Of a stretch of 64,000 nucleotides of DNA, positions 35,768 to 51,767 are shown piece after piece. Position numbers and translations under genes: made by a program. The stretch's first letter is position 1; each line of letters opens with the position of its first letter. The stretch comes from Chloroflexota bacterium (GTDB taxonomy: Bacteria; Chloroflexota; Anaerolineae; Anaerolineales; Anaerolineaceae): assembly GCA_023381565.1 (NCBI GenBank), contig JAMCRR010000053.1:1-64000 (forward strand), in the 5' to 3' direction. The notes beneath the pieces were generated by a model. The model was given only the letters and a program-made list of their open reading frames with translations. It made no database searches and had not been told where the DNA came from.

Positions 35768-35808
35768 GAACATCACATCTTCTTCTTATGATAAAATCGA
35801 TCTTAATT

Positions 35809-36816: not shown

Positions 36817-36842
36817 GCTACCGGCTTATTTCACCCGTGAGA

Positions 36843-37880
36843 TTATCTTGAGATGCGCCCAGAGGCATCGCCGGTCATCAGCTGCTCAACCTCAGCCATG
36901 CTTACGGCGTTGAAATCGCCGGGGATTGTGTGCTTCAGGCAGGAAGCAGCCGATGCAAACCGCAGGGCGCGCTCCAGGTTGCCGCCAGACTCGCGCATGC
37001 CATAGATGAGGCCGGCTGAGAAAGCGTCACCCCCGCCCACACGGTCGACAATGGGGGAGATATCGTAAACCGGCGCCACCAGGAAGCCGTCGTGATGCCA
37101 GAGCACTGCCGACCAGGTATTGTGGCTGGCCGATAGCGAACCGCGCAGGGTGATGGCGATGTGTTTCAGATTGGGCAACCGTTGGGCTATCTCTTCGCAA
37201 ACTGCGCGGTAGCGTTCGGGGTCCAGCTTGCCGCTGCGAACGTCGCTCTGGGATGCTTTGATGCCGAAGACTTTATCGGCATCTTCCTCGTTCCCCACTG
37301 CTACATCGCACATTCCCACCAGCTCCTCCATGACTTTGCCTGGAGCTGAGGTCCATTTCCAAAGCTTGGCTCGATAATTGAGGTCGCAAGAGATCGTCAA
37401 CCCCATCTCTTTCGCTGTCATAACCGCCTCTTTGCAGACCCGGGCAGCACTCTCGGAGACCGCGGGGGTGATCCCCGTCCAGTGGCACCAATCGGCATCT
37501 GAAAAAACCGCTCGCCAGTCGATCATTCCCGGTTGTAAGGTGGCAAAACTCGACTCTGCCCGGTCGTAGAGTACCTTGCTTGGCCGTTGGGCCACTCCCG
37601 TTTCAAGGAAGTAAATCCCCATGCGGTCGCCTCCCATGATGATATGATCGGTTAGGATGCCGTGTTGGTGAAGAAAAGCCAGGCAGCCCATTCCCAGGTC
37701 GTTATCCGGAAGGCGGGTAACAAATTCGGCTTGAACGCCAAAGGAGGCCAGCGAGGCGGCCACATTGGCTTCGCCTCCGCCGTAAGTCGCCTCCAAAGAA
37801 CGAGTGCGGCGCAGCCTCTCGAAGCCCGGCGGGCAAAGTCGCAGCATGATCTCACCGAAGGTAACCACTTTTTCTGACAT
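36843..37880 (-). CDS. kdgK: 2-keto-3-deoxygluconate kinase-like PfkB sugar kinase
   Basis: A 345-residue ribokinase-family enzyme. The N-terminus VVTFGEIMLRLCPPG and YGGGEANVAASLASFG with TRLPDNDLG are the KdgK pattern; family members phosphorylate 2-keto-3-deoxygluconate for Entner-Doudoroff-type breakdown of uronates. The C-terminal signature is RVGGGDAFSAGLIYG, containing the catalytic aspartate. The usual DTVGAGD reads DRVGGGD here, which is common in KdgK homologues. GGGAGGG precedes the ATG. The KDPG aldolase that would normally act next is not in the window. The neighbours are oxidoreductases of sugar-acid metabolism. Confidence 0.9.
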   Translation of the reverse strand: MSEKVVTFGEIMLRLCPPGFERLRRTRSLEATYGGGEANVAASLASFGVQAEFVTRLPDNDLGMGCLAFLHQHGILTDHIIMGGDRMGIYFLETGVAQRPSKVLYDRAESSFATLQPGMIDWRAVFSDADWCHWTGITPAVSESAARVCKEAVMTAKEMGLTISCDLNYRAKLWKWTSAPGKVMEELVGMCDVAVGNEEDADKVFGIKASQSDVRSGKLDPERYRAVCEEIAQRLPNLKHIAITLRGSLSASHNTWSAVLWHHDGFLVAPVYDISPIVDRVGGGDAFSAGLIYGMRESGGNLERALRFASAASCLKHTIPGDFNAVSMAEVEQLMTGDASGRISR

Positions 37881-38029
37881 ATCACCCTCCCGAGGGAAAT
37901 TATATCCATAGATGACTCAGATTGACACAGATTATACACACAGAGAATATTCGAAGACGGTTTACTTTTAGTAACCACCCGAGTCTATCTTTGTTCATCT
38001 GTGCCAGATATTTTCAGTTCCAGGTTCGC

Positions 38030-38058
38030 TTGACACCCGAATCAGAATCGAGTATAGT
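38030..38058 (+). promoter_or_regulatory. Strong sigma-70-type promoter of the BKACE-SDR operon
   Basis: TTGACA at 38030-38035, a 17-bp spacer and TATAGT at 38053-38058. Transcription should begin near 38065, inside the operator described next. The GTG start codon lies about 60 nt downstream. Confidence 0.8.
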
Positions 38059-38062
38059 CCAA

Positions 38063-38086
38063 AATTGGACATACCATTTGTCCAAA
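38063..38086 (+). promoter_or_regulatory. Operator for the GntR/FadR-type regulator
   Basis: AATTGGACATACC at 38063-38075 differs by one base from AATTGGTCATACC in the gntR promoter. Its core TGGACATACCA is close to the TNGTNNNACNA consensus of FadR-subfamily regulators. GTCCAA half-sites at 38058-38063 and 38080-38085 form inverted repeats with the central TTGGAC. It overlaps the predicted transcription start, which is consistent with repression. Confidence 0.65.
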
Positions 38087-38125
38087 TCGCTTTTTACCGA
38101 TAAAAACCTCTCCCGGAGGGAAATT

Positions 38126-38905
38126 GTGGAGCCATTAATCATCATCGCCACGCCCAACATCAGCTGGCTGCACCCGGATGTTGACTACCCGCGTTCTCCT
38201 GAAAGCATCGCCGAAGAGGCAGCGCTCTGCCGCCAGAATGGCGCCTCGATCTTGCATACCCATGCCGAAGGGCGCTGGACCGAGACCATCCGAGCAGTCC
38301 GGTCCACCAGCGACATCATTGTGCAGTGCGGCATGTCCAGCCTCCCGATTGCAGATCGAATGGACGTCTTCCGCGAGAACGCGGACATGATCTCGATCAT
38401 CTTGAACCACCACGACGAAGCCTTCGCTCGGACGGAATGCAACGCGCTCCACCTCAAACCCGAGCTGGAGGAGTACGCCCGGTTGTGCGCCGAATACAGT
38501 GTGATCCCCGAGTTTGAAGTCTGGCATACAGGCTCGATCTGGAATTTGAACTACCTGATCGAAAAACGAGCCATCCGGCCTCCCTATGTGACGACCCTGT
38601 TTCTTGGCTGGCCAGGCGGTACGTGGTCTCCTCCAACCATCGAGGAATATCTCTACCGGCGCAAGAACATGCCTGCCGGCTGCGTCTGCAACGTCAGCAT
38701 CATGGGTGATGCGCAGCGCGACATCGTCAGCACGGCGATACTGCTTGGCGATCACGTCAGGGTCGGCACCGAAGATTATCCCTTCAACCATTTCGGCCAG
38801 GTCGTCCCAACTCACGAGTTGGTGAAAGAAACCGCCGAGCTGGCTCGGGCGATCGGCCGGCCGGTAGCTACCCCAGATCAGGCGCGCAAGATGATCGGCC
38901 TTTAG
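38126..38905 (+). CDS. BKACE-family (DUF849) beta-keto acid cleavage enzyme
   Basis: A 259-residue TIM-barrel enzyme. The start is GTG 38126, five bases after GGAGGG; the open frame continues upstream but covers the promoter. Metal ligands H44 and H46 (ILHTHAEG) and E216 in VRVGTEDYPF match the zinc site of 3-keto-5-aminohexanoate cleavage enzyme. BKACE enzymes condense a beta-keto acid with acetyl-CoA to give acetoacetate and a CoA ester. Which keto acid is used is not evident: the neighbouring SDR could produce it by oxidising a beta-hydroxy acid. It is the first gene of a two-gene operon, 9 bp before the SDR. Confidence 0.9.
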   Translation: MEPLIIIATPNISWLHPDVDYPRSPESIAEEAALCRQNGASILHTHAEGRWTETIRAVRSTSDIIVQCGMSSLPIADRMDVFRENADMISIILNHHDEAFARTECNALHLKPELEEYARLCAEYSVIPEFEVWHTGSIWNLNYLIEKRAIRPPYVTTLFLGWPGGTWSPPTIEEYLYRRKNMPAGCVCNVSIMGDAQRDIVSTAILLGDHVRVGTEDYPFNHFGQVVPTHELVKETAELARAIGRPVATPDQARKMIGL

Positions 38906-38914
38906 GAGGAGGGA

Positions 38915-39688
38915 ATGTGCGCAGATAAAAAAGTTGCCATCATCACCGGCGCAGCGCGCGGCATTGGCGCAGCTACCGCCCAGAAATTCGCCCGCCAGGG
39001 CTACGCCGTTATCCTGCTGGACGTCCTGGAAGAGGGTCAGGAGATCAGCCGCCTCATCAACACCGAGGGCGGGGAGAGCTTTTTTTTCAAGTGCGATGTA
39101 TCTGACGAGAGCCAGGTGCGGGAGCGAGTGCAGTGGGTAGGGGAGCAATACGGGCGCATCGACGCCTTGCTGAATATTGCCGGGATCGTTCTGGTAAAGC
39201 CCTTTGAGGAGATATCTTGGGAGGAATACCAGCGCACCTTCGACGTGAACGTAGGAGGCACCTTCCTGATGTGCAAGTACGTGCTGCCGTTCATGAAGCG
39301 GCAGAAGCACGGCGTAATCGTCAACATGGCTTCTGTCTCGGGGCATGTCGGTCAGACCGATCACGTCATGTATGGCGCCACGAAGGGCGCCATCATCGCC
39401 ATGGCGCGCGCTCTGGCCTGGGAGGTCGCCCCCTACAACATCCGCGTGAATACGATCAGCCCGGGATCGGTGGACACCCCCATGCTGCGCGGCGACATCG
39501 ATCTCGAATCCCGCCGCAGCGGTTTGCCCTTCGACGAGGTTAAGAAGATACGAGAAGCCGAGCAGGCTTTCAAGCGCTGGGCCGATCCCGCTGAAATTGC
39601 CGAGCCGATTTTCTACCTGGCCAGTGAGGGCGCCTCTTTCATCACCGGGGCCGACCTGCTGGTGGATTGCGGGTGGGTGGCTAAGTAG
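38915..39688 (+). CDS. Short-chain dehydrogenase/reductase (SDR)
   Basis: A 257-residue classical SDR. The cofactor motif is TGAARGIG (11-18), with D36 after the second strand favouring NAD. NIAG (87-90) replaces the usual NNAG. The catalytic triad is S140, Y153 and K157 (YGATK). AGGAGGAG precedes the ATG, and the gene directly follows the BKACE gene. The likely role is oxidation of a hydroxy acid or sugar acid to the keto acid that the BKACE enzyme cleaves; this is inference from coupling. Its stop touches the stop of the convergent epimerase gene with no spacer. Confidence 0.93.
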   Translation: MCADKKVAIITGAARGIGAATAQKFARQGYAVILLDVLEEGQEISRLINTEGGESFFFKCDVSDESQVRERVQWVGEQYGRIDALLNIAGIVLVKPFEEISWEEYQRTFDVNVGGTFLMCKYVLPFMKRQKHGVIVNMASVSGHVGQTDHVMYGATKGAIIAMARALAWEVAPYNIRVNTISPGSVDTPMLRGDIDLESRRSGLPFDEVKKIREAEQAFKRWADPAEIAEPIFYLASEGASFITGADLLVDCGWVAK

Positions 39689-40675
39689 CTAGAGAATCGC
39701 CCGGGTATAATCCAGGGAGATCTTTCCATCAACGATAGCTTTCTTAAAGACATCGATCGTCTCTGCAACCCCCTGCTGGAGAGGGGTCTCTGGAAGGCGA
39801 CCTAAAAGCTGCCGCAGCGCAGTATTGTCGATAGCTTGCGGAAAGGGAAGCGGAGACGGATCAAAGGTGAGCTTATCTTTTACCTCCGGCGCAGCGGTCT
39901 CGATGCAGGCAATCACCTCCTGTGTGCTCACGGCCGCGCCGCCCAGGTTGAAGACACCGGCGCCTTCGAATGGCGCCCGCGCAGCCCGGATAAATATCTT
40001 CGCTACGTCATCCGCATATTGGAGGTTGTAACGACCGCCGTAGGTGATGTGGTAGGGTTTCCCCAACGCGGCCGCCAGCATAGCCTTGGTGGGCGTGGAG
40101 GTCATCCCCTGATCGCGGCCCGGACCATAGACGACGTATGGCCGCAAGCCGATGCTCGAAATTCCATCATCGAGAAAATAAACCCGGGCAGTGCCTTCAT
40201 TAGCCTGCTTGAAAACGCCGTATAGCGAGTGCGGTTTGAGCGGCGCATCATGCGGCAAACTGACATCCGGATACTCGCTCTTCTCCCCATAGACCGCTGT
40301 GCTGCTGGCATAGACCACCCTCTTCAGCCCGGTATGTTTTGCTGCTTCGAAAATATTGACCGTGCCAACCACATTGACTTTTGCGCCCTGGGGCGGATCG
40401 GCCTTCACGAATGGAAGCTGCAAAGCAGCCAGGTGGATAAGATGGGTAACCTCAAAACGGCGAATAGCGTCCTCCAGGTCGGGGAGATCGACGATATCCC
40501 CATGGATGGTTTCGAGGCGGGAGAGCTCTTCAGCATCCAGGATCATCCTGAGCCGGTGGTTGCTGCCCTCCTGGTCGAAGAGGAATGCCGGGATCCCTTC
40601 CCGGAGAAGATTGCGAATGACCCAGGCGCCGATGGCGCCATGAGCGCCGGTGACGAGAAATCGTTCTTCGGACAT
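39689..40675 (-). CDS. NAD-dependent epimerase/dehydratase (extended SDR)
   Basis: A 328-residue extended SDR. ATG 40675 has GGGGAGGGG upstream and starts the Rossmann domain at once (FLVTGAHGAIG, glycine motif 10-16). A start 11 codons earlier has no such site. The catalytic residues are S124/S125 (ASSTAVYG), Y152 and K156 (YGVFK). The RPYVVYGPGRDQG segment is the usual substrate-side motif. It resembles UDP-sugar epimerases and bacterial uronate dehydrogenases. The placement with catabolic genes and a GntR regulator favours a free-sugar or sugar-acid substrate, such as D-erythronate or uronate. It lies 29 bp downstream of gntR in one operon. Confidence 0.9.
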   Translation of the reverse strand: MSEERFLVTGAHGAIGAWVIRNLLREGIPAFLFDQEGSNHRLRMILDAEELSRLETIHGDIVDLPDLEDAIRRFEVTHLIHLAALQLPFVKADPPQGAKVNVVGTVNIFEAAKHTGLKRVVYASSTAVYGEKSEYPDVSLPHDAPLKPHSLYGVFKQANEGTARVYFLDDGISSIGLRPYVVYGPGRDQGMTSTPTKAMLAAALGKPYHITYGGRYNLQYADDVAKIFIRAARAPFEGAGVFNLGGAAVSTQEVIACIETAAPEVKDKLTFDPSPLPFPQAIDNTALRQLLGRLPETPLQQGVAETIDVFKKAIVDGKISLDYTRAIL

Positions 40676-40704
40676 TACCCCTCCCCTTAACAAAGATTTC
40701 TGAT

Positions 40705-41442
40705 TCAACCGTCGGTTAATTCTTCCGTTTGGCTGAGTACCTTCAGCTTTTCTTCAACATGATCGAGGTGGCGTTCCATCGCCCTGCTGGCGGCTTGAGG
40801 ATCGCGTTTTTTAATCGCGGTGATAATCGCCCGATGGTCGGTATAGGTCAAGTTCCGCATCTCCGGGTCCTCGCCTGTCCTGTGCCGGCTGTAGACGCTC
40901 AACTTGCTGATCGAAGCCATCAAAATCGATAGGATTTTATTGCGGGCTGCCTCGGCAATGCGCTCGTGGATCTCGAGGTCGCACTGCAGGAATTCTTCCG
41001 GGTTATCGATGCTCCTCCCAGAGCGTTCCAGGCATGCTTCCAGATCTGTGATTTCTTCCGGCGTTATCCGAATGGCTGCCATCGCGGACAGGCCCACCTC
41101 TACCACCCGTCGTGCTTGGAGAAGATCAAGATAAGTCGAATCTTCGAGGGAAAAAATCAAATCGAGGTGTTCAACCAATCGAGCTGGTTCCAAAGAAGCC
41201 ACATAAGTGCCGGAGCCCTGCCGGTTTTCGATAATACCCATTATAGAAAGCGCCCGCAACGCCTCACGCAGGGATGGGCGGCTGACGTGCATGCTTACCG
41301 CCAGCTCGCGCTCTGGAGGCAAGCGATCTCCTGGATGGAGCTGCTTTTCACGGATTAAAGAGAGCAGCCGTGCAGCAATTTTCTGGGATAAGACCTCTTT
41401 CTCAAAGGTCCCGTAATTGATATTCGTAAGGGTATTCGCCAT
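40705..41442 (-). CDS. GntR/FadR-family transcriptional regulator
   Basis: A 245-residue regulator with an N-terminal winged helix (~12-82; PGDRLPPERELAVSMHVSRPSLREALRALSIMGIIENRQGSGTYV) and a C-terminal FCD ligand domain (~95-235). Metal-site residues of the FCD type are visible as D149 and H153 (FLQCDLEIHERI) and a later TYTDHRAIITAI histidine. Such proteins usually repress sugar-acid catabolic genes until a metabolite binds. The promoter contains a 13-bp site almost identical to one at the BKACE promoter, so it probably autoregulates and controls that operon. The start is ATG 41442. Confidence 0.94.
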   Translation of the reverse strand: MANTLTNINYGTFEKEVLSQKIAARLLSLIREKQLHPGDRLPPERELAVSMHVSRPSLREALRALSIMGIIENRQGSGTYVASLEPARLVEHLDLIFSLEDSTYLDLLQARRVVEVGLSAMAAIRITPEEITDLEACLERSGRSIDNPEEFLQCDLEIHERIAEAARNKILSILMASISKLSVYSRHRTGEDPEMRNLTYTDHRAIITAIKKRDPQAASRAMERHLDHVEEKLKVLSQTEELTDG

Positions 41443-41518: not shown

Positions 41519-41549
41519 TCATATTGATGAGCTGTGGCTATAGAAATAT

Positions 41550-41577
41550 TTGTTCATTTGATGTACAATTGTTCAAA
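41550..41577 (+). promoter_or_regulatory. Candidate operator of the SorC-type regulator
   Basis: TTGTTCA occurs at 41550-41556 and again at 41569-41575. TGTTCAT and ATGTACA form an imperfect inverted repeat around TTG in the same stretch. TATAGA at 41539-41544 may be the -10. The site ends just before the regulator ATG and so could serve autoregulation. Confidence 0.45.
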
Positions 41578-41578
41578 G

Positions 41579-42568
41579 ATGGAGATTCCCCAAGGAAAAT
41601 CGAACCCAGCGCCTGTTGACAGCGTCGATAAGACCCTCGTCGAGCCACTGGTGCGCGCCGCCTGGATGTATTACGTCGAGAATAAGACCCAGCAAGATAT
41701 CGCCGAGCGCATGGGCATCTCCCGCCTCAAAGTCCTGCGTCTGCTCAGAGATGCGCGTGATCAGGGCATCGTCAATATCGACATCCGCACTCCTCTGGCT
41801 CCCTATCTCAATCTGGAGAATCGGCTGCGCGAAAAATTTGCCCTGCGCGATGCAATTGTAACCACCGCGGCCGAAGAAGGCGACCCCCTTTACACGGCAT
41901 TGGCCAGCGCAGCTGCCAGGTTCCTCGAGCAGCGCCTGCAGGATCAGATGGTTGTCGGCATGGGTTTGGCGCGCACGCTGTTGAAGATCCCAGACCTGAT
42001 CCGCGTGCCTCGCCCAATTAAATGCACATTTGTGGCTCTCACGGGGGGTTTATCGTATATTACAAATGTTGACACATACAATTTGTTCCACAAGATGGCC
42101 ATCGTTGTGGGTGGGAATGTTAAATACATCCTGGCGCCATTTATTGTCTCCTCCAGGGAGATTAAAAATGCCCTGCTCCAGGATGAAACCATCCAAAGCG
42201 CCATCCATCTGGCGCGCAGCAGCACCCTGGCGATGGTCAGTGTTGGCGTAGCGGACAAAACCGGACTGATCTACCAGTTCAGCCAGATGAGTCCAGCGGA
42301 CCTTGAGGAAATCCGCAAACTGGGCGGGGTGGGCGATATCCTCGGCCGTTTCTATAATCAGGCTGGCCAGGAGTTGCCCATCGCCCTACGCGATCGAACG
42401 ATTGGCGTCGATATCAAAGAGCTCAAAGCCATCCCCACCGTAGTCATGGTCGCCGGCGGCCCGACCAAACGCGCCGCTATCCTGGCTGCCCTACACGGAA
42501 AAATCCCCCATATCCTGATTACCGATACCCAGACAGCCCAATGGTTAGTTGAACAAGCAATCCTTTAA
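41579..42568 (+). CDS. SorC/DeoR-family sugar-binding transcriptional regulator
   Basis: A 329-residue regulator. The N-terminal helix-turn-helix (~15-70) contains WMYYVENKTQQDIAERMGISRLKVLRLLRDAR, typical of SorC proteins. The C-terminal ~260 residues are the effector domain related to sugar-phosphate isomerases, with VGMGLARTLLKIP, VALTGGLSYIT and TVVMVAGGPTKRAAILAALHG. Members are released from DNA by phosphorylated sugars. The ATG at 41579 is preferred, since the frame upstream covers the putative operator; no Shine-Dalgarno sequence is evident. It is followed after 84 bp by the FGGY kinase operon, whose product would be its inducer. Confidence 0.9.
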   Translation: MEIPQGKSNPAPVDSVDKTLVEPLVRAAWMYYVENKTQQDIAERMGISRLKVLRLLRDARDQGIVNIDIRTPLAPYLNLENRLREKFALRDAIVTTAAEEGDPLYTALASAAARFLEQRLQDQMVVGMGLARTLLKIPDLIRVPRPIKCTFVALTGGLSYITNVDTYNLFHKMAIVVGGNVKYILAPFIVSSREIKNALLQDETIQSAIHLARSSTLAMVSVGVADKTGLIYQFSQMSPADLEEIRKLGGVGDILGRFYNQAGQELPIALRDRTIGVDIKELKAIPTVVMVAGGPTKRAAILAALHGKIPHILITDTQTAQWLVEQAIL

Positions 42569-42652: not shown

Positions 42653-44191
42653 ATGAGCGAGTCGTATCTGATGGCACTAGACGCCGGATCGGGTGCAGGA
42701 CGATGTTTTTTGGTCAGTTTGGATGGGAAAAAGGCTTTATCGGCTTACCAGGAATGGAGCTATTTTACTCCGCCGGGTTTAACCGCCGCCGCTTCGGCTT
42801 TCGACCCGGATACGTTCTGGTCGATCTTTGCCGGCGTCACCCAGCAAGCCCTCGCCAAAGCCGGCATCCATGGCAACCAGGTAGTTGCCATCAGCTCGAC
42901 CAGCCAGCGCGAGGGTGCGGTCTTCCTGGGTAAGGGAGGCAAAGAGGTCTATGCCGGGCCGAACCGTGATTTTCGAGCCGCATTCGAGGGCATGCAGCTT
43001 GCCAACACCTTCGGCGACGAGCTTTACCGTCGCACCGGTCACTATCCCAGCGGTCTTTTTGCCCCAGCGCGTCTGCTCTGGCATAAGAACAATCTCCCCG
43101 AAGTATATGCACAAATTACTGCCCTGCTTTCGATCAACGATTGGGTCTTGTACCGCCTGTCCGGCGAATGTGCCTGCGAACCGACCAACGCCGCAGAGAC
43201 CTGCCTGTACGACCTGGTAAACGGGGATTGGGCCTGGGATGTGATCGAATCCCTGGGGCTTAACCCGCAAATCTTCCGGCGCATCCTTCCTTCCGGCACC
43301 CAGCTTGGGGTGGTCTCCCACCAGGTTGCCGAGCAAACCGGGCTGCGTGCCGGCACCCCCGTCGTCGTTGGAGCCGCCGACACTCAATGCGGACTGACCG
43401 GCAGCGGGGCGATCTGCCCCAGCAATATCACTGCCGTTTCCGGCACGACTACGCCGGTCCAGATGGTCACCTCCATGCCCATCATTGATGAGCAGCAAAG
43501 GTTGTGGGCAGGCGCTCACATGATCCCGGGGCTTTTCATCCTGGAGAGCAACGCCGGGGGCTCGGGATCTGTGTACCAGTGGTTTCGCGACTCGTTCTGC
43601 CAGGAGGAGATGGCGCAGGCGGCGGCCCAGGGCATAAGCCCATACGAGCTGATGAATGCTCAAGCCGAGCAAGCCCCGGTGGGTGCGGCCGGGATGCAAT
43701 CGCACATCGGTCTGATGGTGATGAACGCCAAAACAATGGGCATGCCCAGCAATATTTTAATGTTCGGCATGGCTCCCCTGGCGGCTGCCAACCAATGCTG
43801 CAAACCTCTGGTGCTGCGTGCCATCCTCGAAAGCCTGGCGTTTGCCGTCAAAGCCAATGCCCAGCAAATCCTGGAAGTCTCCGGGCTGTCACCTGAGTGT
43901 ATGACCGTCTGCGGGGGCCTGGCTAACTCCCGGACCTACCTGGAGGCGCTTGCGAACACCCTGCAAATGCCGGTCAAAGTGCCGGTATTGAAAGAAGGCA
44001 CTGCAGTGGGGGCGGCGATCTGCGCCGGGGTCGGCGCAGGGGTTTACCGGGATTTCGCGGAAGGCGTCCAGGCTTTGGTGCATACCGGCTGCTTGATCGA
44101 GCCAGACTCGCGCCTGAGCAGGCAGTACCGCAATTTCTATAATCGCTGGACAAAAACCCGCCTGGCTCTCGCCAACCTGGCTGCATCCTGA
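42653..44191 (+). CDS. FGGY-family carbohydrate kinase
   Basis: A 512-residue kinase. ATG 42653 follows CTGGAGG by 5 nt, and 11 codons of upstream frame are ignored. The N-terminal phosphate loop is MALDAGSGAGRCF. STSQREGAVFL and the conserved acidic position in VGAADTQCG follow, and the C-terminal ATPase half has VSGTTTPVQ and TVCGGLANSRTYLEALANTL. The sequence is closest in feel to the autoinducer-2/pentulose/gluconate kinase subgroup, but I cannot fix the substrate. It probably phosphorylates the sugar that the class II aldolase four genes later cleaves. It begins the catabolic operon behind the SorC regulator, with 18 bp to the next gene. Confidence 0.92.
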   Translation: MSESYLMALDAGSGAGRCFLVSLDGKKALSAYQEWSYFTPPGLTAAASAFDPDTFWSIFAGVTQQALAKAGIHGNQVVAISSTSQREGAVFLGKGGKEVYAGPNRDFRAAFEGMQLANTFGDELYRRTGHYPSGLFAPARLLWHKNNLPEVYAQITALLSINDWVLYRLSGECACEPTNAAETCLYDLVNGDWAWDVIESLGLNPQIFRRILPSGTQLGVVSHQVAEQTGLRAGTPVVVGAADTQCGLTGSGAICPSNITAVSGTTTPVQMVTSMPIIDEQQRLWAGAHMIPGLFILESNAGGSGSVYQWFRDSFCQEEMAQAAAQGISPYELMNAQAEQAPVGAAGMQSHIGLMVMNAKTMGMPSNILMFGMAPLAAANQCCKPLVLRAILESLAFAVKANAQQILEVSGLSPECMTVCGGLANSRTYLEALANTLQMPVKVPVLKEGTAVGAAICAGVGAGVYRDFAEGVQALVHTGCLIEPDSRLSRQYRNFYNRWTKTRLALANLAAS

Positions 44192-44209
44192 TTTTCGAAG
44201 GAGATTGAG

Positions 44210-45220
44210 ATGATTTTTTACATCACTGCATCATTGGACGACGACGGGTTGAACCAGCTTCGTTCGCTTGGAGAAGTACGCTATTACCCCCTGGCTGAAA
44301 CGAAATCCCTTCTCGGGGGAAGCCGTCTGGTCCGCGCGTTGGAAGGTGTCGACGTCTTTATCACCGAAGCAGATAATCTCAAAGCCCGCGAGCTGGAACA
44401 GCTTACCAGCCTTCAGATCATCTGTTCATGCCGCGGCAACCCGGTCAATATCGACGTCCAGACCGCGACCACCAAGGGTATCCCGGTGATCCACACCCCC
44501 GGGCGCAACGCCGAGGGAGTAGCCGACCTGGCTGTTGCGTTGATGCTTATGCTCGGGCGCCACATCCTCCAGGCCGAAAGCGCTCTGCGCCGGCGTGACC
44601 CGGCGCAAGAGATGACCATGATGGCTCGGGTTTACTTCGATCTGAAAGGCACAGAAATGTGGTGCAAGACGGTCGGGATCGTTGGTTTTGGGGCCATTGG
44701 CCGCAAGGTCGCCGCTCGCCTGCTTCCCTTTGGCTGCCAGATCATCGCTTGCGATCCCTTCGTCGAAGAGGGTGTGATGGCAGAGCACGGCGCCGGGAAA
44801 GTCGACCTCGATGCTCTGTTGGCTGCTTCGGATTACGTCACCTTGCACGTGATGCCAAACGAAGCCAATCGGGGGATGATCGGGAAGCGCGAGATCGATT
44901 TAATGAAACCCACGGCTTACTTCATCAACACCGCCCGCTCTGCACTGACGGATGAGGCAGCACTCTGCGAGGCTCTGGCCACGCATCAGATCGCCGGAGC
45001 AGGTCTTGACGTGTACGATAAAGAACCCCTGCCCCTCGACCATCCACTGATGAAACTGGAGAACGTCGTACTCCTCCCTCATATCGGAGGGAACACGTTG
45101 GAGGTCACCACTCACCAGACCCAGATCGTCGTCCCGGATATCGTGCGCTTGATCCACGGTGAAAAACCTCATAACATCATGAACCCCGAGGTGTTGGGGA
45201 ATTTCAAATTCAGAAGGTGA
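44210..45220 (+). CDS. D-isomer-specific 2-hydroxyacid dehydrogenase
   Basis: A 336-residue NAD-dependent dehydrogenase of the phosphoglycerate-dehydrogenase family. The NAD loop is VGIVGFGAIGRKVAARL with an acidic residue at the end of the next strand (ACDPF). Catalytic residues are Arg in NTARSALTDE, Glu in YDKEPLP and His in LLPHIGGNT. No ACT domain, so it is not the full serine-pathway enzyme. Reversible oxidation of a 2-hydroxyacid such as glycerate, lactate or glycolate to the 2-keto acid is expected. AAGGAG precedes the ATG. It lies between the kinase and the aldehyde oxidoreductase, and might act on the acid made by the latter. Confidence 0.93.
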   Translation: MIFYITASLDDDGLNQLRSLGEVRYYPLAETKSLLGGSRLVRALEGVDVFITEADNLKARELEQLTSLQIICSCRGNPVNIDVQTATTKGIPVIHTPGRNAEGVADLAVALMLMLGRHILQAESALRRRDPAQEMTMMARVYFDLKGTEMWCKTVGIVGFGAIGRKVAARLLPFGCQIIACDPFVEEGVMAEHGAGKVDLDALLAASDYVTLHVMPNEANRGMIGKREIDLMKPTAYFINTARSALTDEAALCEALATHQIAGAGLDVYDKEPLPLDHPLMKLENVVLLPHIGGNTLEVTTHQTQIVVPDIVRLIHGEKPHNIMNPEVLGNFKFRR

Positions 45221-45228
45221 GATAACCG

Positions 45229-47115
45229 ATGCCCAAACCAGCATGGATCTGGAAAACCCTGCGGGTCAACCTGCGCTCCCGCACCTGGGCGGTGGAAGAA
45301 AAGCCCGAGGAATGGACGCGCCAGTTCCTGGGTGGCAGGGCTTTTGGCGCTTACCACCTCGTCCAAGAGGTGCCGGATCGGGCTGACCCGTTGGGACCCG
45401 AGAATAAGCTCATCCTGGCGACCGGGGTGCTCACCTATACGAAGCTATCCGGGGCGTCACGCTTCAGCGCGGTGGCAAAATCTCCCCTCACCGGCGGTTA
45501 CGGGGAATCCGAAGCCGGCGGTTGGTGGGGACCCGAGCTGGTGGCTGCCGGGTTCAATGCCATCATCCTCGAAGATCAAGCCGATACTCCGGTTTACCTC
45601 TTGATAAAGGACGGCCAGGTCGAAATCCGCGATGCCCGACCCATCTGGGGGTTGGCTAACCGGGAAGCGTACCGCTGGATCCAGGATCAGGCGGGCCGCT
45701 GCCGTGTGCTCCAGATCGGTCCGGCGGGAGAAAATTTGGTGCGTTACGCCTGCCTGATCAATGAGCTGCGGCATATAAATGGCCGTGGGGGTATGGGCGC
45801 CGTGATGGGCTCAAAAAACTTGAAAGCCATTGCAGTCCGAGGCTCGGCAAACCCAAAAGTACTCAACCCCGAAGCATTCGCTCCGCTGCGTGAATGGCAC
45901 AATCACTATCTGCTGACTTCATTCTACGGAAAATATTTTCGCCAGCACGGCACAAACTCGGGCACAGAATATCAGAATGTGATGGGCGCCTTGCCGACGC
46001 GCAACTTCAACGAAATGACCTTCGATGAAATCGACCAGATTTCAGCAGCAGCCTTTGAGGCGGAAGCGATCAAAAGTCGGGGGACCTGCTACGGCTGCGT
46101 TCTGCGCTGCAAACCCCTTGTGTCCCTGGCCGGGGATCTGCAGGTAGACCCTGCCTTGGGCGGGCCCGAATATGAGACTGTAGCTGCGCTGGGCTCGCTC
46201 TGCGGCATCTCGGACCGAAGAGCCATTGCTAAGGGAAATGCCTTGGCAGCCGATCTGGGTCTGGACGCGATCTCTCTGGGCTCCTGCCTGGCTTTTGCCA
46301 TGGAGTGTTACGAAGCCGGCTTAATTACCCCCCAGGAATCCGGTGGGGTCGAGCTGCGCTTCGGAAATGCCGAAGCCATGCTGGCCCTGATCGAGGACAT
46401 TGCCTTCCGCCGCGGCCTGGGCAGCCTGCTTGCCGAAGGGGTTGCGCGCGCCGCCCGCACTTTAGGACGGGGAGCGGAAGCGTTTGCTTTGCACGTCAAG
46501 GGCCAGGAATTCCCCATGCACGACCCGCGCACTAAGTACGCTCAGGCATTGGCGTACGCCGTCTCTCCAACCGGCGCCGAACACAATACCACGCCGTCAG
46601 ACGAGATGTTCTCGAAGAAAGGGGAATTCTTCAAACAAATTATGCCCCTGGGTATCGAAAAGCCGGTCCCTGAAACCAGTCTGGAAGCCGACAAGGTCCG
46701 GTTGTATACCTACCTACACCACGAGCGTAGCCTGTACAATTCGCTCTTGATTTGCCTGCATGTGGTCGACCCGGTGACACCGTTTAATCTGAACAAACTG
46801 GTCGAAATCGTACTTGCGGTCACCGGATGGGAGGTAAGCAGTTGGGAGCTAATGAAAGTGGGCGAGCGCGGCACCACCCTGGCGCGGCTGTTCAACATCC
46901 GCCAGGGCTTTACGGCAGCTGATGACCGCCTGCCCGAGAAGATGTTCGTAGAGATCAAATCGGGTCCCAAAGCCGGTAGGGTTGTCGACCCGGGGGGCGC
47001 TCCAATCGCAATCCAACTCTATTATGGCATGATGGGCTGGGACGCCGGCGGCGTACCTACCCTGGCAAAACTGGCGGAACTTGGCCTGAGCGAGGTCATC
47101 CGCAGTCCGTTCTAA
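45229..47115 (+). CDS. aor: Tungsten-dependent aldehyde:ferredoxin oxidoreductase
   Basis: A 628-residue AOR-family enzyme that oxidises an aldehyde to the carboxylic acid and reduces ferredoxin, using tungsten (or molybdenum) bis-pterin and a [4Fe-4S] cluster. Cluster ligands C287, C290, C294 and C509 correspond well to those that I recall for the Pyrococcus enzyme (288, 291, 295, 494). Pterin-site motifs NGRGGMGAVMGSKNLKA (184-200) and ESEAGGWWGPEL (93-104) are present, as are E314 in GGPEYET and H452 in TGAEHN near the metal. GGTGAG lies before ATG 45229. Being inside a sugar operon is unusual and suggests that the aldehyde is an intermediate of that pathway. It is cytoplasmic, and no ferredoxin gene is adjacent. 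Confidence 0.96.
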   Translation: MPKPAWIWKTLRVNLRSRTWAVEEKPEEWTRQFLGGRAFGAYHLVQEVPDRADPLGPENKLILATGVLTYTKLSGASRFSAVAKSPLTGGYGESEAGGWWGPELVAAGFNAIILEDQADTPVYLLIKDGQVEIRDARPIWGLANREAYRWIQDQAGRCRVLQIGPAGENLVRYACLINELRHINGRGGMGAVMGSKNLKAIAVRGSANPKVLNPEAFAPLREWHNHYLLTSFYGKYFRQHGTNSGTEYQNVMGALPTRNFNEMTFDEIDQISAAAFEAEAIKSRGTCYGCVLRCKPLVSLAGDLQVDPALGGPEYETVAALGSLCGISDRRAIAKGNALAADLGLDAISLGSCLAFAMECYEAGLITPQESGGVELRFGNAEAMLALIEDIAFRRGLGSLLAEGVARAARTLGRGAEAFALHVKGQEFPMHDPRTKYAQALAYAVSPTGAEHNTTPSDEMFSKKGEFFKQIMPLGIEKPVPETSLEADKVRLYTYLHHERSLYNSLLICLHVVDPVTPFNLNKLVEIVLAVTGWEVSSWELMKVGERGTTLARLFNIRQGFTAADDRLPEKMFVEIKSGPKAGRVVDPGGAPIAIQLYYGMMGWDAGGVPTLAKLAELGLSEVIRSPF

Positions 47116-47139
47116 ACCTTTTTCAAGGAGGAAATTGAA

Positions 47140-47523
47140 ATGGCCGGTTTTGAAACGAAAGAGGATATGGCGAAAGTCATCACCCTGTGGATCGAGAAGA
47201 TGAAAGCCGATCCCTCGATCGCCAGGCGCTGCAAAGGGGTGAATGTTACCATGGGCTATGAAATCACCGACCTGGATTTTGCTTTCCACACTGATTTTAT
47301 CGACGGAGTCGTGGACGGCGGTCTGGGTGAGGCTGATCCCCCCTCGAAAGTATTCTTGGAGATGGAAAGCGCCACCTTCGACGGCATGATGACGGGTGAG
47401 GTGGACGCTGCCTCGGCCGCCATGTCGGGAGAGATGTCGTTCTCTGGAGATATGAGCGCAGCCATGGGGCTGCAGGCTCTGCAGGAAGATTTGACCCGCA
47501 TGTATCTCGAAGCCAGAGAATAG
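47140..47523 (+). CDS. SCP2 sterol-carrier-domain protein
   Basis: A 127-residue protein matching the SCP2 fold: an N-terminal helix, central strands (VNVTMGYEITDLDFAF), SKVFLEMESATFDGMMTGEVDAASAAMSGEMSF-type repeats and a final helix. The pattern of a strand, then T-F-x-x-x-x-x-G-x-x-x-x-x-x-A-x-x-x-G-x-x-x-x-x-G-D, is typical. SCP2 domains form a hydrophobic pocket that binds lipids or other non-polar ligands. GGAGG lies before the ATG, and the gene is 24 bp after aor. In this operon it may bind a hydrophobic aldehyde or protect an unstable intermediate; that is speculative. Small stand-alone SCP2 proteins next to AOR homologues are worth tracking. Confidence 0.85.
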   Translation: MAGFETKEDMAKVITLWIEKMKADPSIARRCKGVNVTMGYEITDLDFAFHTDFIDGVVDGGLGEADPPSKVFLEMESATFDGMMTGEVDAASAAMSGEMSFSGDMSAAMGLQALQEDLTRMYLEARE

Positions 47524-47554
47524 CACTCAGGCAGGCAGAGTGTCTGAATTGATT

Positions 47555-47588
47555 CCCCGGGCACGGGTTTATGACTACGCGCCCGGGG
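47555..47588 (+). other. GC-rich hairpin before the aldolase gene
   Basis: CCCCGGGC (47555-47562) and GCCCGGGG (47581-47588) pair perfectly around an 18-nt loop. It lies between the SCP2 and aldolase genes and could attenuate transcription. No T-run follows. Confidence 0.5.
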
Positions 47589-47614
47589 GTAAAATACCGT
47601 GTGTCGTAAATATC

Positions 47615-47643
47615 GTGACTTTGCCTCAGGTTGGCAGTAGAAT
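47615..47643 (+). promoter_or_regulatory. Candidate internal promoter of the aldolase gene
   Basis: GTGACT (47615-47620), 17-bp spacer, TAGAAT (47638-47643). Transcription would start near 47650, 32 nt before the ATG. It would allow aldolase expression separate from the operon. Confidence 0.45.
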
Positions 47644-47681
47644 TTGGGGTAAAGCTGATATCTTTAGAAAGGATAATTCTT

Positions 47682-48347
47682 ATGATCATGGATACCGACC
47701 ATGTGGTCACCGATTTCGAGCTGAAAGAACAACTGGTCGAAACAACCACCGAGTTATATCGTGCCGGCCTGGTGACCGCCACTGGCGGCAATCTCAGTGT
47801 TCGCAGTGTCGAACGTGAAAATGCCATCTGGATTACTCCCAGCCAGATCTTCAAGGGAGCGCTAAAACCAGAGCAGATGACCTTGATCGACATGGATGGG
47901 AAAAGACTCGAAGGAGACTACAAACCTTCGATTGAATCCGTCTTCCACGCCGGCGTGATGAAGCTACGCCCGGAAATCCACGCCGTCGTCCATACCCACG
48001 CGCCCCTGGCGACAGTGTTTGGTATGATTGACCTGCAATTGCTACCGGTAACCACGGAAGCCATTTTCTTGATGGAATATCCCCATATCCCCTGGTACAT
48101 GGGCGGCTCGAAGGATCTCGCTAAGGCGGTCATGGAGATGGTGGGGCAAACCAAAGCTATGGGCGCCTTCTTGCGCAACCATGGGCTGCTGACCCTGGGA
48201 AAGAGCCTGCGCCAGGCCGCAGATAATACCCTCATGGCTGAACATACCGCCAAGATCTTGCTCACCCTAAAAATGACCGGAATGGAGCCTTCGCTAATTC
48301 CGGAGAAAGCTGTGAAATTCCTGTCCCAATTTGCCGGAGCGCTGTAA
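47682..48347 (+). CDS. Class II aldolase, fuculose/rhamnulose-phosphate type
   Basis: A 222-residue zinc aldolase. E85 (PSIESVFH), H104 and H106 (VHTHAPLA) and H167 (RNHGLL) correspond to the catalytic Glu and three zinc ligands of L-fuculose-1-phosphate aldolase with a constant offset of 12 residues. The TGGNLSVR phosphate loop is also present. It should split a ketose-1-phosphate into dihydroxyacetone phosphate and an aldehyde such as lactaldehyde or glycolaldehyde. Decarboxylating or epimerising relatives are the alternatives. ATG 47682 follows AAAGGA by about 8 nt. It is the last gene of the kinase/AOR operon. A hairpin without T-run (48407-48428) follows the stop. Confidence 0.9.
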   Translation: MIMDTDHVVTDFELKEQLVETTTELYRAGLVTATGGNLSVRSVERENAIWITPSQIFKGALKPEQMTLIDMDGKRLEGDYKPSIESVFHAGVMKLRPEIHAVVHTHAPLATVFGMIDLQLLPVTTEAIFLMEYPHIPWYMGGSKDLAKAVMEMVGQTKAMGAFLRNHGLLTLGKSLRQAADNTLMAEHTAKILLTLKMTGMEPSLIPEKAVKFLSQFAGAL

Positions 48348-48602: not shown

Positions 48603-49601
48603 ATGAAGCCATTAATCAAGAAATTGGTGGAGGCGTATGGGCCGTCTGGATACGAAAGCCAGGTGCGCGACCTGGTGCGCCTCGAGGTGGAAGCCTACGC
48701 CGATGAGATCCGGGTCGATGCTCTGGGAAACTTGATCGTTCGCAAGGGAAATCCCTCCCCCGAGGGGAAAACGATTATGTTGGCCGGGCACATGGATGAG
48801 CTGGGCGTCATGGTGACTCACGTCGACGAAAAGGGTTTCCTCCGCTTCACCACGATCGGCGGGGTCTATCCACAAAACTGCCTGGGAGGGCGCGTGCGCT
48901 TCATCCAGGGGATTGAAGGCGTCATCGGGGCAGAACAGCTGGAAGGGCGTGATAAACTGGCCACTTTCGATAAGATGTATATCGATGTCGGCGCTACCAG
49001 CCGGGAAACCTGCCCGGTGAAAGTGGGCGACGTGGCTGCTTTTGATCGTCCTTTCGTTGACCTGGGTGAGCGCCTGGTTTCCAAAGCCATGGATGACCGG
49101 ATTGGCGTGGCCGTGATGGTGTCTGCCCTGCAGCAGCTCAAATCGACACCGCACCAGTTGTATTTTGTTTTCACCGTCCAGGAAGAGGTGGGCTTGCGCG
49201 GTGCAACAACGGCTGCCTTCGGGGTTAACCCCGATCTGGGTGTCGCTGTGGACGTTACTCTGGTGGGAGATACCCCTAAGGGCATCAAGATGGACGTAGC
49301 TTTGGGCAAAGGGCCAGCCGTCAAAGTGCGCGATGATTATCTGATTGTCGATCCCCGTTTGGTAGATTGGATGGCTTCGACGGCTGCAAAAGCAAACATC
49401 CCTTATCAATACGAGGTCCTGGTCGGTGGGGGGACAGACGCCGCAGCCATCAACCTCACTCGTGCCGGAGCACCGTCGACCTGCCTCTCCATCCCCACCC
49501 GCTACATCCATTCTCCTTCCGAGATGGTCGATTACAACGACGTGCAAAATGCAGTCCGCCTGCTGGTCGAGCTGCTCAGCAACCCGGTGCAGTTGAAATA
49601 A
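48603..49601 (+). CDS. M42-family metallopeptidase (first of three)
   Basis: A 332-residue dinuclear metal aminopeptidase. Metal ligands and catalytic residues fit the family: H63 and D65 (AGHMDE), D164/D165 (MDDR), catalytic E194 and E195 (QEEVG), D217 (AVDVT) and H303 (RYIHSP). M42 enzymes form tetrahedral dodecamers that trim peptides in the cytoplasm (PepA/TET, glutamyl aminopeptidase, deblocking aminopeptidase). GGGAGG lies before the ATG. It opens a three-gene operon of paralogues. The 255-bp gap upstream holds the inverted repeat at 48407-48428 and no gene. Confidence 0.95.
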   Translation: MKPLIKKLVEAYGPSGYESQVRDLVRLEVEAYADEIRVDALGNLIVRKGNPSPEGKTIMLAGHMDELGVMVTHVDEKGFLRFTTIGGVYPQNCLGGRVRFIQGIEGVIGAEQLEGRDKLATFDKMYIDVGATSRETCPVKVGDVAAFDRPFVDLGERLVSKAMDDRIGVAVMVSALQQLKSTPHQLYFVFTVQEEVGLRGATTAAFGVNPDLGVAVDVTLVGDTPKGIKMDVALGKGPAVKVRDDYLIVDPRLVDWMASTAAKANIPYQYEVLVGGGTDAAAINLTRAGAPSTCLSIPTRYIHSPSEMVDYNDVQNAVRLLVELLSNPVQLK

Positions 49602-49607
49602 GGATGC

Positions 49608-50672
49608 ATGGCAATGAGCGACCTGGTTCAATTTCTTAAAGAGATGATCTCAGCGCCCGGCCTCTCCGGTTACGAGACACCCGTGCGTGAGATTATTGCC
49701 GACCGCTGGCGTCCCCTGGTGGATGAGCTGCGTACCAGCCGGTTGGGCAGCCTGGAAGGGCTGCGTAAAGGCCGAGGCGCTGAGCCGCGCCCCAGCCTGC
49801 TTCTGGCAGCCCACATGGACGCCATCGGTTTGATCGTTTCCGGCATCGCTGGCGAACACCTCCGCTTTACCGAAATCGGAGGCGTGGATCCGCGCATTCT
49901 CCCCGGACAGCCCGTCCTGGTGCACGGGCGCCGGCCTCTGCCGGGCGTCATTGTACAGCCGCCTGCCGGCTTGCTCCCTCCCGACATCAAGGATAACCCG
50001 GTGCCTATGGAACGTCTGTGGGTGGACGTCGGGCTGACATCAGAAGAGGTTGCCAACCTGGTGCATTCCGGCGATCTGATTTCCTTCGCCCAACCACCCA
50101 TCGATCTATCGGGAAATATTCTCTCCGGCCACACCATGGACGACCGCGTCTCGGTGGCTGCGGTCACCTTCTGTCTTGAAGAGCTCCAAACTCGCCTTCA
50201 TGCCTGGGACATTTGGGCTGTCGCTACGGTACAGGAAGAGACCAGTTTTGGCGGGGCGTATACTTCCACCTTCGGCCTTAATCCGGATATGGGCATTGCC
50301 ATCGACGTCACCCACGCCAAAGGCCCCGGAACAAGCGAAGCGACTATACCGCCCCTGGGGAAGGGCCTCGTCCTGGGTATTGGGCCAAATTCCCACCCCT
50401 TCCTCTTCAAGAAGTTGAAAGAACTGGCAGAAGAGCTGGAGATCCCCTATCACATCGAGCCTTATGCGCGCCATTCAGGCACAGACGCCTACGCCATACA
50501 GGTTACCGCCGAAGGAAAGCCCAGCATGGTAATCAGCATTCCGCTGCGCTACATGCACACTCCAGTCGAAACCGTCTCGATCAAGGACATCAAGCGGGTC
50601 GGGCGGCTGCTGGCAGCCTTTATCACCTCGCTGGACGACCAGTTCCTCCAGCAAATCAATTGGGAAGCGTAG
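49608..50672 (+). CDS. M42-family metallopeptidase (second of three)
   Basis: A 354-residue paralogue starting 6 bp after the first. Family motifs are AAHMDAIGL, TMDDRVS, VQEETSFGGA, AIDVTHA and RYMHTP. The usual Glu of HMDE is Ala (HMDA) and the residues after the catalytic EE pair are TSFGG instead of VGLRG, so the active site is slightly changed and specificity may differ. Two ATGs, 49608 and 49614, are possible starts; AAGGA precedes both. It is translationally close to both neighbours. Confidence 0.94.
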   Translation: MAMSDLVQFLKEMISAPGLSGYETPVREIIADRWRPLVDELRTSRLGSLEGLRKGRGAEPRPSLLLAAHMDAIGLIVSGIAGEHLRFTEIGGVDPRILPGQPVLVHGRRPLPGVIVQPPAGLLPPDIKDNPVPMERLWVDVGLTSEEVANLVHSGDLISFAQPPIDLSGNILSGHTMDDRVSVAAVTFCLEELQTRLHAWDIWAVATVQEETSFGGAYTSTFGLNPDMGIAIDVTHAKGPGTSEATIPPLGKGLVLGIGPNSHPFLFKKLKELAEELEIPYHIEPYARHSGTDAYAIQVTAEGKPSMVISIPLRYMHTPVETVSIKDIKRVGRLLAAFITSLDDQFLQQINWEA

Positions 50673-50675
50673 CTT

Positions 50676-51767
50676 ATGGAACCGAGCATAGAGTTCAAGC
50701 AAACCGCGCCGGAGATTGGCGCAGAACAGATCCAGCTGCTGCAGAAGCTCTTAAACGCCAGCGGGGTATCGGGCGACGAGGGCGAGGTGCGTGCCATCGT
50801 CCTCGAAGAAGTGAAACCTGTTGCAGACGAGGTAAAAGTAGACTCCCTGGGAAACGTTCTGGTTACCCGGCGTGGAAAAGGTGAGAACCGCCTGCGGGTC
50901 ATGCTCGACGCCCACATGGACGAAGTGGGCTTCATCGTCACCGCCGATGATGGGGATGGTTTGTTCCAATTTTCCACAGTCGGTGGGATCGATGTTCGCC
51001 AGATCGTTGGGAAGCCGGTGCTGATCGGCAAGGATCATGTCCCCGGTGTAATTGGAGCGCGCGCCATTCACCTGACCACAGCCGAAGAACGCAGGAGGGT
51101 CATCCCCCTGGATATGCTGCGCATGGACGTTGGCCTGGGAGACGCCGGCAAGCAGGTGAAACTAGGAGACCGGGCGGTGTTCGCCAGCCGCTTCAGCCAG
51201 GTTGGCGCCAGCCTGCGCGGCAAAGCATTGGACGACAGGTTGGGCGTGGCGACCTTGATCGAGCTGGTGAAACACGCCCCAGAGCAAACCGACCTGCTGG
51301 CGGTCTTTTCCACTCAGGAGGAGGTCGGGGGCTGGGGCGCAAAGGTGGCAGCTTTCCAGCTTAACCCCGATCTGGCGATTGCCGTCGATTCAACCCCCGC
51401 TTACGATCTGCCGGCCTGGGATGACGGTGAAAATACCATCTACAACACGCGCCTGGGCGCCGGCCCAGCAATCTATACGATGGACCGGGCCACGCTATCA
51501 GATCCTCGCCTGGTCCGCTTCCTGGCGCAAACGGCGGAAGCCAATCAGATCCCCTTCCAGTACCGCCAGCCGGGAGGCGGAGGCACCGACGCCGGGGTGA
51601 TTCACATGCAAAAAGAAGGCATCCCCAGCGTTTCGGTTTCCGTCCCAGGGCGCTATGCCCATACGGCCTTTGGTCTGGCGCGCCTTTCTGATTGGGAGAA
51701 TACCCTCAAACTCCTTTACCTGGCGCTCGCCGGATTATCGTCAGGCTTCTTGGATGAAATCAGATAG
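50676..51767 (+). CDS. M42-family metallopeptidase (third of three)
   Basis: A 363-residue paralogue beginning 3 bp after the second. Motifs are DAHMDEVGF, ALDDRLG, STQEEVGGWGA, AVDSTPA and RYAHTAF, all metal ligands and the catalytic Glu pair being present. It carries an N-terminal extension of ~15 residues compared with the first copy. Different substrate loops in the three copies suggest complementary peptide specificities or a hetero-oligomer. Its last 8 bp overlap the convergent zincin-like gene. Confidence 0.94.
   Translation: MEPSIEFKQTAPEIGAEQIQLLQKLLNASGVSGDEGEVRAIVLEEVKPVADEVKVDSLGNVLVTRRGKGENRLRVMLDAHMDEVGFIVTADDGDGLFQFSTVGGIDVRQIVGKPVLIGKDHVPGVIGARAIHLTTAEERRRVIPLDMLRMDVGLGDAGKQVKLGDRAVFASRFSQVGASLRGKALDDRLGVATLIELVKHAPEQTDLLAVFSTQEEVGGWGAKVAAFQLNPDLAIAVDSTPAYDLPAWDDGENTIYNTRLGAGPAIYTMDRATLSDPRLVRFLAQTAEANQIPFQYRQPGGGGTDAGVIHMQKEGIPSVSVSVPGRYAHTAFGLARLSDWENTLKLLYLALAGLSSGFLDEIR

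Follow-up and report, generated by a model that had tools for sequence, protein, structure and literature searches.

Introduction

In L-fucose/L-rhamnose-type routes, sugars are degraded by an isomerase, an FGGY kinase and a class II aldolase, and the lactaldehyde is either oxidised by an aldehyde dehydrogenase (ALDH) or reduced by FucO. A related design is found in the dihydroxyacetone phosphate (DHAP) shunt for 5'-deoxynucleosides (mtnK, mtnA, ald2), in which a kinase and a class II aldolase give DHAP and an aldehyde that depends on the substrate, under DeoR-type regulation (PMC12632272, PMC10986504). Here we analyse a six-gene cassette in a 64,000-nucleotide stretch of a Chloroflexota genome (assembly GCA_023381565.1, contig JAMCRR010000053.1, positions 1 to 64,000; the window), which encodes a SorC/DeoR-type regulator, an FGGY kinase, a D-2-hydroxyacid dehydrogenase (HDH) family enzyme, a tungsten aldehyde:ferredoxin oxidoreductase (AOR), a sterol carrier protein 2 (SCP2) domain protein and a class II Zn-aldolase. 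We show that this cassette is the unfused version of a conserved FGGY kinase/HDH/SCP2/class II Zn-aldolase module together with an aldehyde oxidoreductase. Our literature searches for this gene set found no description of it. The module may break down the sugar-like tails of membrane lipids, not plain sugars.

Results

A conserved and often fused module in Chloroflexota

Relatives of the cassette were sought with the window AOR against GTDB contigs, with the SCP2 protein, and then, across 400 genomes from the phylum and 396 from the class, with a fused protein of genome G003. The AOR search found one close relative, the chromosome of Anaerolineaceae bin52 (locus L034), which carries FGGY, HDH, AOR and SCP2 in the same order and at 62-69% identity. 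The aldolase is absent from this locus, and a 69%-identical C-terminal half of it borders an N gap at another place of that assembly; the missing gene probably reflects a scaffold break. The SCP2 search yielded three further genomes with SCP2 beside HDH and aldolase, and in G003 all four parts form one protein of 1,309 residues whose gene adjoins that of a SorC regulator. Altogether, FGGY, HDH, SCP2 and aldolase were found together in 29 Chloroflexota genomes (a few of them cut by contig ends). In about 20 of these at least two parts share one reading frame, mostly as the whole FGGY-HDH-SCP2-aldolase chain of ~1,300 residues, and in the other nine, including the window, the genes are separate. 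Examples of fused proteins are those encoded at L129:8296-12099 and L128:7913-11836. Two further loci, L237 and L247, contain FGGY, HDH and aldolase but lack SCP2; a tree built from these three enzymes places them as the sisters closest to the window and L034. No matches to the module were found in the viral contigs searched.

The gene neighbourhood has been kept in different families and phyla, and the cassette therefore exceeds what chance would give. Such conservation was the check proposed in an earlier note on this DNA, and it supports that note's view of the genes as one catabolic unit. The same note had found no place for SCP2 in any sugar pathway; because the FGGY-HDH-SCP2-aldolase combination recurs in 29 genomes, in about 20 of which SCP2 is built into a fusion between HDH and aldolase, we regard SCP2 as a core part of the module.

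Repeated linkage of aldehyde-oxidising enzymes

An aldehyde-oxidising gene adjoins the module in at least 16 of the 29 Chloroflexota genomes. The AOR is tied to the kinase-aldolase pathway, as had been proposed, in 12 of the 29 SCP2 modules and in 3 of 11 Bacillota loci that carry the core (see below), and an NAD-dependent ALDH replaces it in four genomes. The 4.3-Mb window genome has three AOR genes, and an AOR beside a random gene is therefore expected in about 1% of cases; the linkage in Chloroflexota is far above this expectation, related genomes being non-independent trials. Ten of the linked AORs form one fully supported clade in a tree whose comparison AORs were chosen by similarity to the window AOR, and we do not claim this clade to be exclusive to the module setting. 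The window and L034 AORs fall in another part of the tree and that of the Bacillota locus L185 in a third place; linked AORs thus come from at least three branches. Because AORs have been recruited repeatedly and exchanged for an NAD enzyme, aldehyde oxidation probably belongs to the pathway, and the natural reading is that the aldolase yields an aldehyde which the AOR oxidises.

The window AOR has all four cluster cysteines attributed to it earlier, namely a CxxCxxxC motif at C287/C290/C294 plus C509, and matches the PDB entries 9mqx (366 bits) and 1aor (337 bits). Its E316 and H452 align to the columns of a Glu and a His of Pyrococcus furiosus AOR, which we take to be active-site residues. 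From these features the enzyme is predicted to oxidise an aldehyde with reduction of ferredoxin.

A general partnership between AOR and SCP2 was also considered and rejected. Among 80 AOR loci, SCP2 was nearby in L034 only, and therefore SCP2 travels with the module and not with AOR. Some other gene combinations were noted around AORs. In G003, an AOR, an iron-alcohol-dehydrogenase-like gene, an SCP2 and an mtnA-looking gene lie within 6 kb (L163:7144-13115), apart from the fused module of that genome. In an Anaerolineae relative (G064), a class II aldolase fragment is separated by 108 bp from an AOR (L028:5-2409), and no further part of the module was seen there. Beside one AOR module, a DapA-like domain is fused to a formaldehyde-activating enzyme domain (L242:3336-4811), and L246 has two similar-looking genes.

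The core outside Chloroflexota

FGGY-HDH matches were found in 17 of 299 Bacillota genomes. In eleven Bacillota neighbourhoods HDH accompanies a kinase of the same branch, and ten of them also have a class II aldolase; L186 and L189 were left out of this count since their kinases lie on the XylB/LyxK branch. The module SCP2 was found in none of the eleven. Three of them have an AOR (L185, L190 and L197), in L192 its place is taken by an iron alcohol dehydrogenase, and others contain Zn-alcohol dehydrogenases and a xylose-isomerase-like protein, with ribose-type or BMP-type (nucleoside-type) ABC transporters. Since SCP2 is missing from the Bacillota core, the chemistry of the core is not lipid-bound, and SCP2 looks as if it was added within Chloroflexota. 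The HDH-FGGY pairs on Streptomyces and Klebsiella plasmids were rejected as instances of the same core, their kinases grouping with XylB/LyxK. A related but different combination is present at L189:7856-13315 (G745), where an AOR lies by an XylB-branch FGGY kinase, an HDH and a KDPG-type aldolase.

Families and residues of the other cassette proteins

Gene assignments in the window were made with Pfam and NCBIfam profiles. All six genes that the earlier note had listed are present and complete, with the catalytic residues of AOR, HDH and aldolase intact (Table 1). The kinase scores 355 bits with the NCBIfam model for autoinducer-2 (AI-2) kinase, under the cut-off of 528, and its closest PDB match is LsrK (5ya0). 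In the kinase tree it is sister to the AI-2 kinase (LsrK) branch, true LsrK forming a separate clade with support of 100/100. By motif only, Asp D243 stands at the catalytic position.

Enzymes of the HDH family usually act on 2-hydroxyacids, whose carboxylate is bound by an Arg. The window HDH keeps the R243/E272/H291 triad and the Rossmann NAD domain, as judged from Pfam and from an alignment of the cassette HDHs, most of which share an RGNPVN(V/I)D motif. When aligned with E. coli FucA, AraD and YgbL, the window aldolase shows the Zn histidines H104, H106 and H167 and the Glu E85, and this pattern of three Zn-ligand His and a catalytic Glu is found in all cassette aldolases. AraD-type epimerases have Asp where aldolases have the catalytic Glu, and on this basis we rejected the window enzyme as an epimerase of that type. 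OtnC-type decarboxylases have the same Zn-His/Glu pattern, and a decarboxylase-type reaction of this superfamily is possible.

The SorC/DeoR-type gene is the likely regulator of the cassette. Its product matches the NCBIfam LsrR and DeoR models below their curated cut-offs. SorC-type regulators also adjoin the module or related genes in L120, L191-L194 and L201, and in the Streptomyces loci L132 and L138.

Table 1. Positions of the cassette features in the window, and of the beta-glucuronidase genes that form one unit with the fused module
Feature	Position	Strand	Basis
SorC/DeoR-type transcriptional regulator	41534..42568	+	Pfam sugar-binding domain PF04198, 206 bits
FGGY carbohydrate kinase	42653..44191	+	Pfam FGGY_N/C
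D-2-hydroxyacid dehydrogenase (HDH) family enzyme	44210..45220	+	Pfam, 185 bits
Tungsten aldehyde:ferredoxin oxidoreductase (AOR)	45229..47115	+	Pfam AFOR_N/AFOR_C
SCP2 (sterol carrier protein 2), module-specific subfamily	47140..47523	+	Pfam, 41 bits (cut-off 21.3)
GC-rich inverted repeat in the SCP2-aldolase gap	47556..47592	+	Sequence
Class II (Zn) aldolase, FucA/RhuA-like superfamily	47682..48347	+	Pfam Aldolase_II, 154 bits
Beta-glucuronidase	L128:4784-6946		
Beta-glucuronidase	L130:4170-6320		
Beta-glucuronidase	L228:4573-6723		

The six genes follow one another at gaps of 84, 18, 8, 24 and 158 bp. The aldolase most likely starts at ATG 47682, which lies within an open reading frame (ORF) opening with TTG at 47631. 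The 158-bp gap folds better than shuffled sequence (z = -3.3), and its inverted repeat is a possible mRNA hairpin. Just upstream of the cassette, at 35788-41442, genes for a Zn-alcohol dehydrogenase, a PfkB kinase, a BKACE enzyme, two SDR-type enzymes and a GntR/FCD regulator make up what looks like a second catabolic cluster, and three M42 aminopeptidase genes lie in tandem at 48603-51767, 255 bp downstream of the aldolase.

The SCP2 domain

The SCP2s of the module form one subfamily, scoring 172-186 bits on their own profile, on which other SCP2s of these genomes score at most 38 bits. An AlphaFold model of the window SCP2 (predicted local distance difference test, pLDDT, 91) matches SCP-2 with Z 13.9 and a root-mean-square deviation of 2.4, with 113 residues aligned to 8af3, and also matches the SCP2 domains of alkylsulfatases. 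When HDH, SCP2 and aldolase were modelled together, the domains were ordered and the linkers flanking SCP2 had pLDDT below 50; the predicted template-modelling score of 0.36 makes the placement of the domains untrustworthy. The low-confidence linkers in this model are consistent with a tethered carrier role of SCP2.

In G343, G508 and G1178 the fused gene is co-directional with genes for an ALDH and a beta-glucuronidase. The G343 beta-glucuronidase scores above its NCBIfam cut-off, that of G1178 is 91% identical to it, and a C-terminal SCP2 domain was detected in the enzymes of G343 and G508. L034 has a GH4 glycosidase, a second SCP2 and an ABC transporter upstream of the kinase. Because SCP2 accompanies glycosidases as well as the kinase-aldolase core, the substrate would be a glycoside with a hydrophobic remainder. 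Together, the SCP2 fold, the SCP2-tailed beta-glucuronidase and the HpnA epimerase described below suggest a hydrophobic, polyol-bearing substrate.

Discussion

Proposed function and rival explanations

Starting from the observed conservation, fusion, AOR/ALDH swap, catalytic residues and SCP2 fold, we propose a pathway whose step order, products and hydrophobic ligand are drawn from gene content. The kinase would phosphorylate the terminal hydroxyl of a sugar-like or polyol chain, after which HDH, with NAD+, would oxidise the neighbouring carbinol to the ketone that retro-aldol cleavage requires. The Zn-aldolase would then act on the ketose-phosphate-like intermediate, releasing a triose phosphate (probably DHAP) together with an aldehyde, which AOR (in some relatives an NAD ALDH) would turn into an acid, with AOR passing the electrons to ferredoxin. 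SCP2, tethered between HDH and aldolase, would bind a hydrophobic portion of either the substrate or the aldehyde. We give this proposal as a whole, comprising the module, the order of its steps and the carrier role of SCP2, a probability of about 0.55.

We propose the order from kinase through HDH and aldolase to AOR or ALDH on three observations: in the fusions HDH lies between kinase and aldolase, neither AOR nor ALDH is ever part of a fusion, and HDH occurs with every kind of aldehyde partner, and also without any adjacent acid-forming enzyme. This suggests that HDH acts ahead of the aldolase. The earlier note had placed the aldolase directly after the kinase and HDH last, acting on the acid; in that order AOR would make a 2-hydroxyacid such as glycolate or lactate, and HDH would convert it into an oxoacid. 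The HDH family does include glyoxylate/hydroxypyruvate reductases, and AOR adjoins HDH in the window, but HDH keeps its place in the fusion regardless of the acid-forming enzyme, and L192 has an iron alcohol dehydrogenase instead. We therefore consider that order improbable, its last step being probably misplaced; the AOR-linked kinase-aldolase unit of that interpretation is supported, whereas SCP2 as an outsider and HDH acting on the acid are not. Less credit still is due to a role in AI-2 catabolism, in which an LsrK-like kinase and an LsrR-like regulator would process phospho-DPD. The kinase is nearest to LsrK in both PDB and NCBIfam and the regulator matches the LsrR and DeoR models, but both proteins fall under the curated cut-offs and the LsrK clade is separate. 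We rejected the Lsr pathway on these profile scores and the kinase tree; in addition, a Pfam scan of the window from 35.8 to 56.8 kb and of the clusters showed no LsrF, LsrG or Lsr transporter (LsrACDB).

A more serious rival, though on balance an unlikely one, is a plain hydrophilic pathway, in which a small sugar or aldonate would be the substrate of kinase, HDH and aldolase, with SCP2 as a mere scaffold or dimerisation domain. Several observations speak for it or weigh against a lipid-linked module. The SCP2-less Bacillota core, with its ribose- or nucleoside-type ABC importers, SorC regulators, xylose-isomerase-like protein and Zn-alcohol dehydrogenases, indicates that the core chemistry needs no lipid. 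HDH retains its carboxylate-binding Arg, and a sugar acid would fit it at least as well as a polyol. The SCP2-less L237 and L247 fall inside the Chloroflexota tree, 13 of the 29 modules have neither AOR nor ALDH in the examined sequence (several of them at contig ends), and the four-domain ORFs come mostly from metagenome assemblies. On the other hand, the SCP2s of the 29 genomes form a well-conserved subfamily with a canonical lipid-carrier fold, whether fused or not, and a second SCP2 is attached to or lies beside a glycosidase in L128, L130, L228 and L034. These observations lead us to prefer the carrier role of SCP2 in the module.

A possible hopanoid substrate

The clusters at L118, L234, L235, L241 and L244 additionally contain a class III aminotransferase, an M28 peptidase-like protein and an HpnA epimerase above the TIGR03466 cut-off of 367.65; the best HpnA score of the window genome is 250 bits. 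We rejected the view that HpnA is a gene of Anaerolineae in general: weaker homologues occur throughout, and matches above the cut-off occur in only 8 of 64 genomes. All eight have the SCP2 module, an association confounded by relatedness, the controls being mostly from the window's own family. It has been suggested, without proof, that HpnA acts between ribosylhopane and bacteriohopanetetrol, and HpnA was non-essential in one study (PMC5462960). No squalene-hopene cyclase was found in 62 of the 64 genomes, and the other two gave weak partial hits, none of them convincing. Consequently, own synthesis of hopanoids is unlikely, and their catabolism is still compatible with the data.

A doubtful extension of our proposal is that the module serves to break down the polyol side chain of bacteriohopanepolyols, or that of another C-C-linked polyol lipid of this kind, for example a 4-hydroxylated sphingoid base. 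In the case of bacteriohopanetetrol, the kinase would phosphorylate the C35 hydroxyl, HDH would then oxidise C34, and the Zn-aldolase would cut between C33 and C32 to give DHAP and a C32 hopanal held by SCP2, which AOR or ALDH would convert into C32 bishomohopanoic acid. In some relatives, SCP2-bearing glycosidases would first strip sugars, while the aminotransferase, M28 hydrolase and HpnA would handle amino-type side chains. Judged from the gene content, bacteriohopanepolyols would fit every part, each enzyme being used once, and a sphingoid base would fit several parts too. Among the hopanoic acids in one study of sediment lipids, C32 had the highest abundance (PMC11884234), and no enzymatic route to it was found in the literature searched.

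If the proposal is true, a lipid-carrier domain inside a sugar-type kinase/dehydrogenase/aldolase enzyme would allow bacteria to metabolise lipids that carry sugar-like heads, and a tungsten enzyme would couple their breakdown to ferredoxin. If the hopanoid reading is also true, the module would be an enzymatic source of the C32 hopanoic acids that serve as molecular fossils. With the parts fused into single chains, the claim is readily testable. More modestly, the data describe a recurrent kinase-aldolase pathway, for which no description was found in the literature searched, with interchangeable AOR and NAD ALDH.

Comparison with known systems

The bacteriohopanepolyol genes hpnA and hpnO (PMC5462960) have counterparts in the HpnA-model epimerase and class III aminotransferase of five genomes' module clusters, whereas the window cluster itself has neither. 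In the SdsA1/Pisa1 alkylsulfatases, peroxisomal MFE-2 and UbiJ, matched at the level of fold, an SCP2 lipid-carrier domain is likewise tethered to enzymes with hydrophobic substrates, but the module SCP2 sits between a dehydrogenase and an aldolase of the sugar-phosphate type. With the Lsr pathway (E. coli lsr locus, L202), the window shares a kinase that is sister to LsrK and a SorC/LsrR-like regulator; it differs in that its aldolase is a Zn class II enzyme, and in having no LsrF/LsrG or Lsr transporter. The DHAP shunt resembles the module in its kinase and class II aldolase that give DHAP and an aldehyde, and in its DeoR-type regulator, whereas the module kinase is of another family and HDH and SCP2 are added; an MtnK-type kinase and an MtnA isomerase with the aldolase were not found in the Pfam scan of the window between 35.8 and 56.8 kb, and the module clusters contain no MtnA. 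Finally, the L-fucose/L-rhamnose route (E. coli fucOAPIK, L203) also joins an FGGY kinase, a Zn class II aldolase and an aldehyde-disposing enzyme in one unit. Compared with that route, the window cassette lacks the isomerase, and its kinase and aldolase lie outside the FucK and FucA families; it adds HDH and SCP2, and a ferredoxin-linked AOR replaces the NAD enzyme.

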